From Nitrospirota bacterium (GTDB lineage Bacteria > Nitrospirota > Thermodesulfovibrionia > Thermodesulfovibrionales > UBA6898): a stretch of 64,000 nucleotides of DNA. Below the pieces are notes generated by a model, which saw only the letters and a list, made by a program, of their open reading frames with translations, was not told the DNA's origin and ran no database searches. A program made the position numbers and the translations under genes. Each line of letters starts with the position of its first letter. Position 1 is the first letter of the stretch. Below are positions 3,669-9,240 of this stretch, piece by piece. The DNA is taken from positions 1-64,000 of the forward strand of contig JAKAIE010000002.1 in NCBI GenBank assembly GCA_021814475.1, written 5' to 3'.

Positions 3669-4988
3669 ATGCAAACGCCTCTAATAGTCACCAATGACAA
3701 TCTCTATTCATTTTACCGTTCATTCGGCAAGGCCCTGTCATGGTCTGTCGGTGATATTGTCAGGGCAGAGGTGATCAATGTGATGTCTTCCGGTTCCGTT
3801 GCGCTGCGTGTTACACAGGAGAACGGGGAGTCGGCGATTATTACCGCAAAAAGCCAGGTCCCGCTCTCAACCGGATCCCAGGTCCTTCTCAAGGTGAGCG
3901 GCGGCGAGGGGGAGATCAGGCTGCAATTAGTGTCGACGGCGACCGAAGGGTCGCTGATCAATCATCAGCCGCCCGAGACCATGCCTGCCCGGCTTTTGAA
4001 GATACTCACCGACTTTTCCGGGCTTCGCCTCAGTAGCGGGGATATTCAGCTCATCAAGGATGCCTTTGAAAAAATTCCTGACAGAATGAGGATTGCCTTT
4101 CCGGAATTCAAGGCCCTTGAGGATCTTATGCCGGAGGTTGAAGAACTGAACGCAGGCCTTCTTAAACAATCAGTGGAAGGCTCCGGCGTACTCCTGGAAA
4201 CGAAGCTGAAACTGATCGGGCGGAACATGCCCGGCACTGAGGACGGGAGTGGACCGGGTTTCATTATTGAGGGCAGTGAAGAACATGCCGACGTTCTCAG
4301 GCAGGTGATCAGCGACGATGAAGTCCTGCGGGAATTCAAACTCTCAGGAAAGGGTGAGTCCGAGATCGGCGCCACTCTGGACAAGGTGGTCAGGAAAGCG
4401 CTTGAGGGAGCAGGGAAGCAGCTGCTGGCTGAGCACGGAAAAGCTGCTGAAACAGGTGACGGCACGTTCAGGCCCGAGACGGACCAGAAGGCTGTTCTGA
4501 TCAAGCTCGGCGCTCTTCTGAAAGACAGCGACATCGCCTCTTCGCTTAAGGCCGCCGGAGTGAAGGTGCCGGAGGTCTCCGGTGCGGTCGAGAGGCTTTT
4601 GAAAAACATCGAGTTCTTTCAGTTGAGCTCTAAGGTCAATGATGTGCTGTATACCTTTCTGCCGCTGACGTGGCAGGAGATGAGGGACGGAGAGATCACC
4701 TTCAGGAAAGAAAACAGGTCCGGAGAAAGGGCATTCTCCTGTGATATCAATCTCGATCTGGCGCCCATGGGCAGGCTGTCGGTTTCCGTGACACTCTACG
4801 GCGGATCGTACCATATCACGTTCTATGCGGAAGAAGAGACGACAAAGTTGCTGATAGAGTCCGGTAAAAACCACCTGCAGCAGCAATTTGCGGATAATGG
4901 TCTGTCCCTGAGGGTTGTCAATATAAGCGGGAAACGGAACCCGGGTGCGGGCGTTGGTGAAGGTAAGGGACTCCACATCAGGGTATGA
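3669..4988 (+). CDS. FliK-like flagellar hook-length control family protein
   Basis: 439 residues. The N-terminal 90 residues form a beta-rich domain ('VGDIVRAEVINVMSSGSVALRV'). The middle is charged and helical. Residues about 325-425 resemble the Flg_hook C-terminal domain of FliK ('MGRLSVSVTLYGGSYHITFYAE' followed by a Leu-rich helix and 'GLSLRVVNIS'). FliK measures hook length and switches export specificity, but a separate long FliK may exist elsewhere, so this could be a paralog. It overlaps the next gene by ATGA. Confidence 0.72.
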   Translation: MQTPLIVTNDNLYSFYRSFGKALSWSVGDIVRAEVINVMSSGSVALRVTQENGESAIITAKSQVPLSTGSQVLLKVSGGEGEIRLQLVSTATEGSLINHQPPETMPARLLKILTDFSGLRLSSGDIQLIKDAFEKIPDRMRIAFPEFKALEDLMPEVEELNAGLLKQSVEGSGVLLETKLKLIGRNMPGTEDGSGPGFIIEGSEEHADVLRQVISDDEVLREFKLSGKGESEIGATLDKVVRKALEGAGKQLLAEHGKAAETGDGTFRPETDQKAVLIKLGALLKDSDIASSLKAAGVKVPEVSGAVERLLKNIEFFQLSSKVNDVLYTFLPLTWQEMRDGEITFRKENRSGERAFSCDINLDLAPMGRLSVSVTLYGGSYHITFYAEEETTKLLIESGKNHLQQQFADNGLSLRVVNISGKRNPGAGVGEGKGLHIRV

Positions 4989-5260
4989 GTATGAACGGGG
5001 GACAGAAAAAAGCGGCAGCGCTGAGGTATACCCACGGCCAGGACAAGGCGCCGAAACTCGTTGCCAAGGGCAGCGGAGCGGTGGCCGACAGGATCATCGA
5101 GATCGCCAGGGCGCATGGCATACACATCGAGGAGGACCGGTCACTTCTTGAGGTCCTCTCGTCCCTCGACCTCTACCAGGAGATCCCTCCGGAGCTGTAT
5201 AAGGCAGTGGCGGAGATACTGGTTTTTGTATATAAGTTGAATAAAAAGGTTGCGGGATAA
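4985..5260 (+). CDS. FlhB C-terminal-domain homolog (FlhX/YlqH type)
   Basis: 91 residues similar to the cytoplasmic domain of FlhB/YscU ('AALRYTHGQDKAPKLVAKGSGAVADRIIEIARAHGIHIEEDRSL', the usual 'A..Y....APkvvAkG....A..I...A...gi.i..d..L' pattern, then 'IPPELYKAVAEILVFVYKLN'). It has no membrane segments and no NPTH self-cleavage site. Such stand-alone proteins pair with FliK in other bacteria and are thought to substitute for the FlhB C-domain in substrate switching. The overlap with the FliK-like gene supports that. Confidence 0.87.
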   Translation: MSMNGGQKKAAALRYTHGQDKAPKLVAKGSGAVADRIIEIARAHGIHIEEDRSLLEVLSSLDLYQEIPPELYKAVAEILVFVYKLNKKVAG

Positions 5261-6617: not shown

Positions 6618-6995
6618 TCAGCGCCCCCTGAGTCCGGCTGCGATGTTCATGTTGATATCGATAATGATATTGAGCTTTTCAGGTAAAGGGTCCGAGAGCA
6701 CCTCTATTATCCTTTTGTCTATGAATATGCTCAGGCTGAGGATATCCTGTTTCAGCTGTTTTGGCAGGGGATTATCTTCCTTCGCAAGTTCAGACTGAAA
6801 GATAGTCCATACCATCTGGTTCAATCTGAGTGCCTCAGCGAGCATTGAATTGCGGTCTTCAGCTTCCCAGTTGTTCTGGCAATCCTTGAGCCTCAGGGCT
6901 GCCTTTGTGAGGGCTGCAGCCTCTATCTCCCTGCCGGACATGGTCGTTTTCTGAACGGTTCTGTATGTATCAAGTTGATTTGCCGTGGCGTACAT
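6618..6995 (-). CDS. flaF: Flagellar biosynthesis regulator FlaF
   Basis: 125 residues matching FlaF: 'TYRTVQKTTMSGREIEAAALTKAALRL' near the N-terminus, followed by 'EALRLNQMVWTIFQSEL' and a helical C-terminus with 'LSLSIFIDKR'. In alphaproteobacteria FlaF assists flagellin synthesis and secretion and acts opposite to FlbT. It overlaps flbT by 26 bases, so translation is likely coupled. A 120-base region with no gene separates it from the TPR gene. Confidence 0.9.
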   Translation of the reverse strand: MYATANQLDTYRTVQKTTMSGREIEAAALTKAALRLKDCQNNWEAEDRNSMLAEALRLNQMVWTIFQSELAKEDNPLPKQLKQDILSLSIFIDKRIIEVLSDPLPEKLNIIIDINMNIAAGLRGR

Positions 6996-7374
6996 GATTT
7001 ATTGCCTCCTGTTCATAGTCTATCAATTTTCTGGTCAGTTTAAGAGCCTTGTAATGGTTGTTGTTCAGGATGTTATCGCCGATCTCGTAGAGAAGCTGTC
7101 TCGTGCTCGGTGCCGCCTCTACCACTTCCTTGACAAGGTCCCAGAACACTTTATGATGTTCCGGTATATTCTTTTCATCGACATACATCAGTTGAATCGT
7201 AAAATAAATCTTTTTGCAGGCTGAGTCAGCGTCCTTAAGACTCATGATGTCTTTTTCGCGAAGGATAGGGACAGTGTTTTCGACAACAAAGTCGCTTTTG
7301 GTCTTTCCGTTCGAAATTACCGCCCCGCCGATGATCAACTTCTCACCCGGTTTTAGTGCAATTTTCAGTGCCAT
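6970..7374 (-). CDS. flbT: Flagellin mRNA regulator FlbT
   Basis: 134 residues with the FlbT signature: N-terminal 'LKIALKPGEKLIIGGAVISNG' (small beta domain), then 'VENTVPILREKDIMSLKDADSACKKIYFTIQLMYVD' and a helical C-terminus. In Caulobacter, FlbT binds the 5' leader of flagellin mRNA and blocks its translation and lowers its stability until the hook is finished. Its place downstream of the flagellin gene here, together with hairpins in the flagellin leader, suggests the same job. It ends overlapping flaF. Confidence 0.92.
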   Translation of the reverse strand: MALKIALKPGEKLIIGGAVISNGKTKSDFVVENTVPILREKDIMSLKDADSACKKIYFTIQLMYVDEKNIPEHHKVFWDLVKEVVEAAPSTRQLLYEIGDNILNNNHYKALKLTRKLIDYEQEAINHVRHGKST

Positions 7375-7381
7375 AGCGGGC

Positions 7382-7837
7382 TTAGACCTTCACGTTGACG
7401 ATTACGCCCGGTTTGGCCGGCTCTGTCTGTTTTGCTCCATTCCTGTATCCAATGAGTCTGTCAAGTGAGGCTGAAATTTCATGATCGGATGCATTCTCAG
7501 GCAGCTTATTCTGACTGAATGCCTTCTTCACATTATCGTCCACCGACGACTTCCCAATCTGGTCCTCAAGGCCTCGGATCCTTTTTATCAGATCGAGCCT
7601 CTGCGGGCTTCCGGCCGGGAAGAAAGGGGGAAAACTCGTCAGGAGCGTTTGCAGTTGATCCTTCAGATAATCTATCCCAGTTGTTATGGCCTGAGTCGAA
7701 ACCTTTGGAGTTCCTGCTTCGCCTGAGACCTGGGCAGGTGGAGCATTGAGTTTGGCCTCAACCCCATAATCGCCTTTTTCAGAGGAGCGAATCGCATTCT
7801 GCGAGAGTTGTCCTGCCTGTATACTGTTAATGTTCAT
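7382..7837 (-). CDS. Hypothetical protein in the flagellin-flbT operon
   Basis: 151 residues that I do not recognise. The N-terminus 'MNINSIQAGQLSQNAIRSS' is polar, the middle (residues 50-100) is helical with 'GIDYLKDQLQTLLTSFPPFFPAGSPQRLDLIKRIRGLEDQIG', and the C-terminus ends in a short hydrophobic strand. There is no signal peptide, transmembrane helix or metal motif. It lies seven bases before flbT and after the flagellin gene, so it probably joins flagellin biogenesis; a chaperone or FlgN/FliS-like role is possible but only an inference. The overall composition resembles its neighbours. Confidence 0.7.
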   Translation of the reverse strand: MNINSIQAGQLSQNAIRSSEKGDYGVEAKLNAPPAQVSGEAGTPKVSTQAITTGIDYLKDQLQTLLTSFPPFFPAGSPQRLDLIKRIRGLEDQIGKSSVDDNVKKAFSQNKLPENASDHEISASLDRLIGYRNGAKQTEPAKPGVIVNVKV

Positions 7838-7906: not shown

Positions 7907-9055
7907 TTAGCCGAACAGTCTCAGGACTGACTGTGCTGCCTGTGAAGAGAGTGACAATGCCGTTGTGCCCAGAGAGTTTCTGGTCTGGAGCATCAGCATG
8001 TTGGCGCCTTCCTGGTTAGTGTCAGCAAGCGTAAGGTTGTCTGCGCCAGTCTGAAGAACGTTGACGAGGTTCGTCGAGAAGTCCTGGCGGGCATTGATGA
8101 TTGCCAGGTTGTTAGACAGGTCCTTTGACTTGCTTCTAAGTGTGCTGAGAGCAGTATCGACTGCGGTCATCTGCACGCTTCCATCTGTTGTGGAGGCTGT
8201 CCATTCGGTGGTTACCTTCGCCAGCGCCAGATCAGTATAGTGTGTGTTGGTACTGTTAATGTTCAGAGTACTGCCACCTCCAAAATTAACCGTCAGAGTC
8301 CCGGCCTTAAGGAGATTCACTCCCTGGAATGAAGCATCGTCAGCCATGGTGTTAAGCTGATCCATGATACTATTGTACTGACTCACGAGAGATCCTCTCT
8401 CGCTGTTGGCGGCAACTGTTGTTGCAGAGACGGTTCCGCCGGATGCCGCAGTTCCCGTGACGCTGAGATTTGTAAGGGCTGCTGTCCCGGCAAATGACAC
8501 CATGCTTCCGCTTACTGTTGTAGCCTTGGTCCCGTTTGTAGCGGTAGTGGTGTTGTATGCAGTTGCAATATTGGCTGCGACCTGCGCGTCGCTTATGCCT
8601 GCGCCGACCGCAAATGTGGCATGGGTGGCATCTGTATTGGCGGTAGCTGCAGCTGCCGTTAATGTTACGCCGTCAAGAATTATCGTCTGCCCCGATGTAA
8701 TTCCCGCCGCGCTGATGTTTACCCCGGATACGGCTGAATTTGCAGGCAGGCCCGCTACGGAGGATGCAATAGCCTTTGCCGCACCGAGCAAGGTCGTCAT
8801 TCCGGTGATACCCTGGTTCGCGGCCTGGATGGTCTGGACCGCATTTGACATACCGTCCTTGTAGCCGGCGAGGTCTGATGCACGGTTGTTGAGGGACTGG
8901 GCTGCAAAGAAGTTGACCGGGTTGTCAAGGGCGCTGTTGACTGCCTTGCCGGTTGAGAGTCTCTGCTGGGTCCTGTTAAGAAGATTGACTGTTCCCTGGA
9001 GGCTTACGAGGTTGGCACGCATGCCAGCTGTTAAACTAATATCGTTGATAGCCAT
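7907..9055 (-). CDS. fliC: Flagellin
   Basis: 382 residues. The N-terminal D0/D1 region has 'LLNRTQQRLSTGKAVNSALDNPVNFFAAQSL' and the C-terminal region has 'NNLAIINARQDFSTNLVNVLQTGADNL', ending in 'AAQSVLRLFG'. The middle 130 residues are Ala/Thr-rich and variable. This end pattern is that of FlbT/FlaF-type flagellins. I use the ATG at 9055, with AAGGAG (9066-9071 region) before it, rather than the longer frame. Transcription should begin near 9207 from a perfect sigma-28 promoter, giving a leader of about 150 bases with two hairpins. Confidence 0.95.
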   Translation of the reverse strand: MAINDISLTAGMRANLVSLQGTVNLLNRTQQRLSTGKAVNSALDNPVNFFAAQSLNNRASDLAGYKDGMSNAVQTIQAANQGITGMTTLLGAAKAIASSVAGLPANSAVSGVNISAAGITSGQTIILDGVTLTAAAATANTDATHATFAVGAGISDAQVAANIATAYNTTTATNGTKATTVSGSMVSFAGTAALTNLSVTGTAASGGTVSATTVAANSERGSLVSQYNSIMDQLNTMADDASFQGVNLLKAGTLTVNFGGGSTLNINSTNTHYTDLALAKVTTEWTASTTDGSVQMTAVDTALSTLRSKSKDLSNNLAIINARQDFSTNLVNVLQTGADNLTLADTNQEGANMLMLQTRNSLGTTALSLSSQAAQSVLRLFG

Positions 9056-9063
9056 TTTACTGC

Positions 9064-9105
9064 TCCTTATTCTAAGGATTTTGTTTCCCGGCAATTCTTG
9101 CCGGG
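9064..9105 (-). promoter_or_regulatory. Flagellin mRNA leader: twin GAA-loop hairpins, one covering the ribosome site
   Basis: On the minus strand, CCCGGCAA-GAA-TTGCCGGG (9105-9087) is a perfect 8-bp stem with a GAA loop. Eight bases later TCCTTA-GAA-TAAGGA (9078-9064) is a perfect 6-bp stem with the same loop. The second stem includes AAGGA of the Shine-Dalgarno, and the start codon follows at 9055. This could hold translation off and provide a binding site for FlbT, whose gene is in the same cluster. The structure is seen; FlbT binding is inferred. Confidence 0.7.
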
Positions 9106-9213
9106 GTGGGTGGTCCGCAAGGCAGACCTTTGTGAGTCATTTTTTTGTCTTTCCGGTCTCTGCTCTTTCCTCTCCTCCTTTTCGACCTGATTCGGACCTG
9201 CTTCTTAAGATTC

Positions 9214-9240
9214 TTATCGGCATTCCTTTAGGAAACTTTA
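9214..9240 (-). promoter_or_regulatory. Perfect sigma-28 promoter of flagellin
   Basis: On the minus strand TAAAGTTT (9240-9233), an 11-base spacer and GCCGATAA (9221-9214) match the FliA consensus at every position. The predicted start site is near 9207. Confidence 0.95.

Follow-up and report, generated by a model that had tools for sequence, protein, structure and literature searches.

In Caulobacter, FlbT binds the leaders of flagellin mRNAs and represses them until the hook has been built, the mRNA being degraded, according to those parts of the reviews that concern FlbT (PMC4347634, PMC3930126). It acts together with the flagellin FljJ and is described, in the relevant part of a further report, as being released upon secretion of FljJ with FlaF (PMC7591256). 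For Brucella, the corresponding sections state that FlbT promotes flagellin production (PMC4347634, PMC8781033), and the sign of the control could therefore be repression or activation. The 2015 review, in its part on FlbT, leaves the target motif blank and the mechanism unresolved (PMC4347634). The second system to be considered here is CsrA-FliW, where the hag/flaA leaders combine a loop hairpin about 40 nt upstream with a site on the Shine-Dalgarno sequence. In a part of the literature the FlbT and CsrA systems are termed analogous (PMC4894983).

The flagellin locus studied here is located in the window, that is the whole stretch of 64,000 nucleotides from a Nitrospirota bacterium that was analysed. 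Its features, in the order of transcription, are the following:

9214..9240, minus strand: sigma-28 (FliA) promoter, TAAA-N15-GCCGATAA, an exact match to the consensus
9056..9207, minus strand: predicted flagellin mRNA leader of about 152 nt, taken from the distance between promoter and ATG with a deduced transcription start
9155..9187, minus strand: upstream module GGTC-gaaaaGGAGG...-GACC, an orphan Shine-Dalgarno-like stretch without start codon and with short complementary ends
9112..9128, minus strand: third hairpin, GGTCTGC-CTT-GCGGACC, directly upstream of hairpin A, its loop not conserved
9087..9105, minus strand: hairpin A, CCCGGCAA-GAA-TTGCCGGG (equivalent to CCCGGCA-AGAAT-TGCCGGG), a perfect stem and the proposed FlbT anchor
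9064..9078, minus strand: hairpin B, TCCTTA-GAA-TAAGGA (equivalent to TCCTT-AGAAT-AAGGA), a perfect stem with the second AGAA site over the Shine-Dalgarno sequence
9063..9068, minus strand: Shine-Dalgarno sequence AAGGAG, 7 nt 5' of the ATG
7907..9055, minus strand: flagellin gene with its ATG at 9055-9053 (Pfam Flagellin_N)
7382..7837, minus strand: open reading frame of 151 amino acids between the flagellin gene and flbT, without Pfam match
6970..7374, minus strand: flbT, single copy (Pfam FlbT, E 1.2e-42), encoding the proposed reader of the element
6618..6995, minus strand: flaF, overlapping flbT (Pfam FlaF, E 2.7e-33)

The exact sigma-28 consensus at 9240-9214 on the minus strand leads one to expect a leader of about 150 nt, just as the preliminary description of this DNA had it, and sigma-28-like promoters are found 5' of many flagellins of FlbT-encoding genomes. 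Its further statements, that two perfect GAA-loop stems lie eight bases apart (9105-9087 and 9078-9064, minus strand), that the nearer one pairs with the Shine-Dalgarno sequence and that FlbT and FlaF are encoded downstream, also hold: AAGGA of AAGGAG is part of hairpin B, and both genes are present on the same strand with clear Pfam assignments. The GAA loop it named is present in both hairpins, but AGAA(N) is the better description. A single flagellin was found in the window's genome, the other Flagellin_N match being FlgL. A stand-alone FlhB C-terminal domain (FlhB2-like) is encoded after fliK on the plus strand (4985-5260).

The locus resembles the FlbT/FljJ/FlaF system of Caulobacter crescentus in possessing flbT and flaF and in the structured 5' leader of its flagellin gene. 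It differs in that the genome belongs to the Nitrospirota and contains one flagellin and no FljJ paralogue, whereas Caulobacter has six flagellins, and in that sigma-28 takes the place of RpoN, which is given for the Caulobacter flagellin promoter in the pertinent part of PMC3930126.

We consider it probable from the comparisons set out below that the two hairpins constitute a recognition element for FlbT, in which A anchors the protein, B covers the Shine-Dalgarno sequence and FlbT acts as a gate on flagellin translation until secretion begins. Hairpin A, which has a stable stem and an AGAA(N) loop and lies some 40 nt 5' of the start codon, would serve as the anchor, and the second AGAA, which forms site B between CCY and AGGAG, would bring a further contact to the ribosome site. 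Binding of FlbT would keep B closed, and translation would be blocked or the mRNA would decay; FlbT would let go once the hook is complete and flagellin leaves through it together with FlaF. As there is one flagellin in the genome, it would be its own co-regulator, such that cytoplasmic flagellin and FlbT would close the leader and secretion would presumably open it. FlbT binding, repression as the sign of the control and flagellin/FlaF as the release signal are what we infer for this organism. The element suggests how these bacteria time filament production.

In the predicted ensemble, hairpin A has a local energy of -12.8 to -14.3 kcal/mol with pair probabilities of 0.56-1.0, and hairpin B one of -3.6 to -4.4 kcal/mol with pair probabilities of 0.76-1.0. 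A chance origin of the pair is ruled out by dinucleotide shuffles of the leader: two GAA-loop hairpins of at least 6 bp arose in 0 of 20,000 shuffles and at least one such hairpin in 12 of 20,000. The folding energy of the leader as a whole is not unusual (z -1.5) and uninformative. For the third hairpin, inspection by eye revealed one at a similar position in several relatives, with unrelated loops.

The element was also compared with catalogued RNAs. At the gathering threshold Rfam reports nothing but tRNA in the window. The Termite-flg RNA (RF01729) was rejected, its 12.2 bits being far below the 40 required for gathering; the match places its 3' hairpin on hairpin A, but the Termite-flg loop, AAGGAUA, is a GGA loop. 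ANTAR tandem-hairpin RNAs consist of two hairpins with six-base loops that have A at position 1 and G at position 4, and loops of AGAA or AGAAN do not follow this pattern, so this class was discarded as well. The flg-Rhizobiales RNA (RF01736) lies upstream of flagellin genes. It has no match in the window, and no Rfam match was obtained in the tested Rhizobiales loci either; the table entry in PMC2864571 lists it, by name, as a flagellar-gene motif of Rhizobiales. The consulted portions of the open literature on FlbT and flagellin leaders, a scope that leaves subscription papers aside, yielded no description of the element.

Of the 101 genomes in the close set, 12 encode FlbT, counting that of the window, and in the phylum 19 of 295 do. 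All 16 phylum leaders that could be read, those of 15 relatives and that of the window, have AGAA at both sites. A scan of 84,980 genomes with a FlbT alignment led to 80 named loci, whose titles point mostly to Deltaproteobacteria, Desulfobacterales and Nitrospirae, in addition to relatives of Geobacter and a few loci labelled otherwise. Loci without a flagellin N-terminus in reach were left out (12 of the 80 from the large scan and five of 20 phylum loci), duplicates were removed and the alphaproteobacterial leaders L048 and L049 were set apart, resulting in 80 distinct leaders. Of these, 65 have AGAA at site A, and 78 have it at site B, beside the Shine-Dalgarno sequence. The loop of the best upstream hairpin is AGAA in 61 cases, AGAU in nine, ANGGA in three and another sequence in six, and one leader has no such hairpin; a looser rule finds an AGAA hairpin in 74 of 80 leaders but may catch chance AGAA beside AGAU loops, which makes 61 of 80 the stricter count. 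The consensus reads GGC[N]AGAA[N]GCC, about 10 nt, CC[CU]AGAAAAGGAG, a few nt and ATG. A group around Syntrophorhabdus (L067, L071, L072, L074, L077, L092, L095, L096 and L104) has AGAU in hairpin A and keeps AGAA at B. In L120 the loop of hairpin A is AAGGAU and in its near relatives L101 and L113 it is AGAA; these loci are labelled Proteobacteria or Betaproteobacteria and include FlbT.

The alignment of leaders from flbT-carrying relatives that the preliminary description had called for was made, and in these relatives the stems recur, their substitutions are paired and their loops are conserved. A MAFFT alignment made independently of the covariance model, comprising 25 of the 80 leaders chosen by one loop-length class, exhibits two-sided changes in eight of ten pairs and a covariation of 0.285, compared with 0.125 after shuffling and at most 0.109 after sliding. 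For 68 sequences fitted to the model, a procedure that favours the structure, two-sided changes were found in ten of ten pairs and the covariation amounts to 0.393 (0.178 shuffled, at most 0.137 slid). When arms were swapped between leaders, the paired positions of hairpin A fell from 6.14 in the native combination to 3.68, and none of 2000 permutations reached the observed total. The covariation and arm-swap results make hairpin A certain. The same test was nearly flat for hairpin B (own mean 3.28 versus 3.14, observed total reached by 21 of 2000 permutations) because the Shine-Dalgarno arm hardly varies, and the case for hairpin B rests mainly on the conservation of its loop.

Hairpin B, the proposed trap for the Shine-Dalgarno sequence, is strong in the window but weak in most relatives, where its median energy is -1.75 kcal/mol, with -1 or lower in 61 and -3 or lower in ten of 78 leaders. 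Since the loop is better conserved than the stem and the stem is weak in most relatives, hairpin B looks rather like a protein-binding site superimposed on the Shine-Dalgarno sequence, and less like a stable RNA lock. These observations bear on a purely passive function, in which B would hide the Shine-Dalgarno sequence by itself in a thermosensor-like or tuning manner, A would protect the mRNA or insulate B and a regulator would be unneeded. The high pairing probability of hairpin B with the Shine-Dalgarno sequence in the window would suit such a function, but a passive lock requires no conserved loop letters and would not vanish together with FlbT, and we hold it to be very improbable.

FlbT occurs in 93 of 398 genomes of Pseudomonadota. 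Among alphaproteobacterial leaders read from plasmid records with flbT, those of Salipiger, Alloyangia and Loktanella (two genes) carry a tandem pair of AGAA hairpins, of which the second adjoins or overlaps the Shine-Dalgarno sequence, and one AGAA hairpin is present in Roseivivax, Azospirillum (lateral flagellin, two species), Rhodovastum, Roseomonas, Pseudoroseomonas, Paracoccus and Cereibacter (at -74). Leaders with such hairpins thus include several from the Rhodobacterales and the Rhodospirillales. None was found in the leaders of Methylorubrum, the polar flagellin of Azospirillum, Paroceanicella and Phyllobacterium (two genes); two Sulfitobacter genes, which encode hypothetical proteins and not flagellins, and Erythrobacter, with a doubtful start, were not counted. 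The loci of 60 of the 93 genomes were fetched, 14 of which gave no flagellin, and 70 leaders were obtained. They include 19 AGAA-loop and 26 AAAA-loop hairpins (1.4 and 0.9 in shuffled leaders), and 35 have AGAA on the Shine-Dalgarno side (4.1 shuffled), all of these counts being minima because some starts are probably misplaced. The predicted leader plan reaches the clade for which FlbT binding has been reported, with a loop that appears to drift between AGAA and AAAA. The other loops in many FlbT-encoding Alphaproteobacteria, AAAA above all, and the leaders with no AGAA hairpin count against recognition by FlbT. If FlbT is indeed the reader, comparison would have defined its RNA target as two sites whose loop is conserved in Nitrospirota, in genomes of the Desulfobacterota type and in some of the Alphaproteobacteria. 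With the loop defined in this way, recognition by FlbT becomes testable with single-base mutants.

When covariance model R1 was applied to 85 sources, 863,696 bases in total, it matched 68 times at E<=0.01, and the coordinates of these matches are those of flagellin leaders. Among the 295 phylum genomes, matches at E<1e-5 were present in 15 of the 19 FlbT-encoding genomes (32 bits or more), in each of them just 5' of the flagellin gene or its listed fragment, and in none of the 276 genomes without FlbT. The remaining four FlbT-encoding genomes score low (window 25.6, G045 25.2, G014 with locus L029 25.0 and G033 with locus L035 20.0 bits), in the range where unrelated matches begin. The element is kept where flagellin gene and flbT are located on different contigs (e.g. 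G282 and G217), and in Citrifermentans bremense a second flagellin gene, unlinked to flbT, has its own copy. No match to FlbT was found in phages.

The flagellin type and FlbT, each present in 19 of the 295 genomes of the phylum sample, coincide exactly, and the element with them; it could therefore track the flagellin instead of FlbT, which cannot be singled out from this pattern. The element might accordingly be read by another factor travelling with the flagellin cassette, be it FlaF, whose gene adjoins flbT in most of the 20 FlbT-encoding loci of the phylum, the 151-amino-acid protein or an RNase or ribosome feature, FlbT co-occurring by shared descent. However, relatives of the 151-amino-acid open reading frame are present in seven of these 20 loci, whereas the element is found in 15 of the 15 with a readable leader; AGAA hairpins are seen, too, in front of alphaproteobacterial flagellins whose N-terminal type is different; and in the consulted parts of the literature it is FlbT for which, among the cassette members, RNA binding is reported. 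Recognition by another cassette member is in our opinion unlikely, and FlbT remains the favoured reader.

An ordinary CsrA-FliW-type flagellin leader would likewise have a hairpin about 40 nt upstream and a site at the Shine-Dalgarno sequence. GGA is the CsrA motif. The loops in the window are AGAA, not ANGGA or GGA, and neither CsrA nor FliW was found in its genome (94% complete), so control by CsrA was rejected for this organism, barring a csrA gene in the unassembled remainder, and its probability is close to nil. CsrA is encoded in 163 of 290 phylum genomes, a draw of five genomes fewer than that for FlbT, and among the 19 FlbT-encoding genomes G042 alone is listed with CsrA. In this genome (L028, L349), the only one of the phylum sample listed with both, csrA and flbT share a contig and are separated by about 7 kb. 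FliW occurs in two of 22 FlbT-encoding genomes (G269 and G282) versus 24 of 24 genomes that have CsrA and lack FlbT. Genomes with FlbT nearly always lack CsrA and FliW, and among phylum genomes the element accompanies FlbT, not CsrA.

For comparison, 30 flagellin leaders from relatives with CsrA and without FlbT were drawn from a Pfam search. Weak flagellin matches in genomes lacking FlbT were dropped as controls; the one that was checked, in G072, is FlgL-like and situated 0.8 kb from csrA. Neither an AGAA hairpin nor an AGAA on the Shine-Dalgarno side occurs in any of the 30 leaders, and 22 of them have a GGA-loop hairpin at a like place (shuffled mean 2.6), the loops being AGGA or NGGAN. 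L329 from a CsrA-encoding relative without FlbT (CGGCA-AGGA-TGCCG) and L122 from a FlbT-encoding one (CGGCA-AGAA-TGCCG) are one loop base apart. Judged by these sequences, the leader plan is common to the AGAA/FlbT and the GGA/CsrA relatives. Such a plan, kept with either AGAA and FlbT or GGA and CsrA-FliW, would represent a clean natural swap, and the two known couplings of flagellin translation to secretion may therefore be alternative readers of one design.

A distant kinship of the N-terminal domain of FlbT with CsrA is possible. In hhalign, the N-terminal 40 residues of FlbT align nearly end to end with CsrA, with P 0.033 for alignments A5/A6 and 0.013 and 0.009 for larger alignments. Scores as high were obtained with 16 of 400 column-permuted CsrA profiles and with eight of 293 windows of unrelated proteins, the latter stemming from three proteins with alignments of 11 to 33 columns versus 38 for CsrA. 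The best pairwise score between FlbT and CsrA was reached by one of 60 decoys and the mean by two of 60. The predicted model of FlbT consists of five strands followed by four helices (pLDDT 92.5; 84.3 for the N-terminal domain alone). Foldseek returned no PDB match at E<0.001 for whole FlbT or its N-terminal 50 residues, and the N-terminal domain is weakly similar to half barrels of the cupin type and to TRAP, at Z values of about 3 (best rows below 4); CsrA is absent from the Foldseek and VIA-align listings for FlbT, which excludes nothing. The portions of the literature that name both FlbT and CsrA contain no claim of kinship that we could find. It is a tentative idea, and one we rate as rather doubtful, that FlbT and CsrA are two readers of one scaffold, that the single base leading from AGGA to AGAA hands the leader over and that the N-terminal five-strand domain of FlbT is a far-diverged CsrA-type domain with changed loop specificity.

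A minor observation concerns the region further upstream. Many leaders of FlbT-encoding genomes contain, roughly at -134 to -86 and about 30-35 nt into the mRNA, a Shine-Dalgarno-like GGAGG(UG) without start codon, often within GGTC...GACC. GGAGG was found between -190 and -60 in 48 of 79 leaders, compared with 10.3 in shuffles. This orphan module may serve ribosomes as a standby site or offer FlbT an additional contact.
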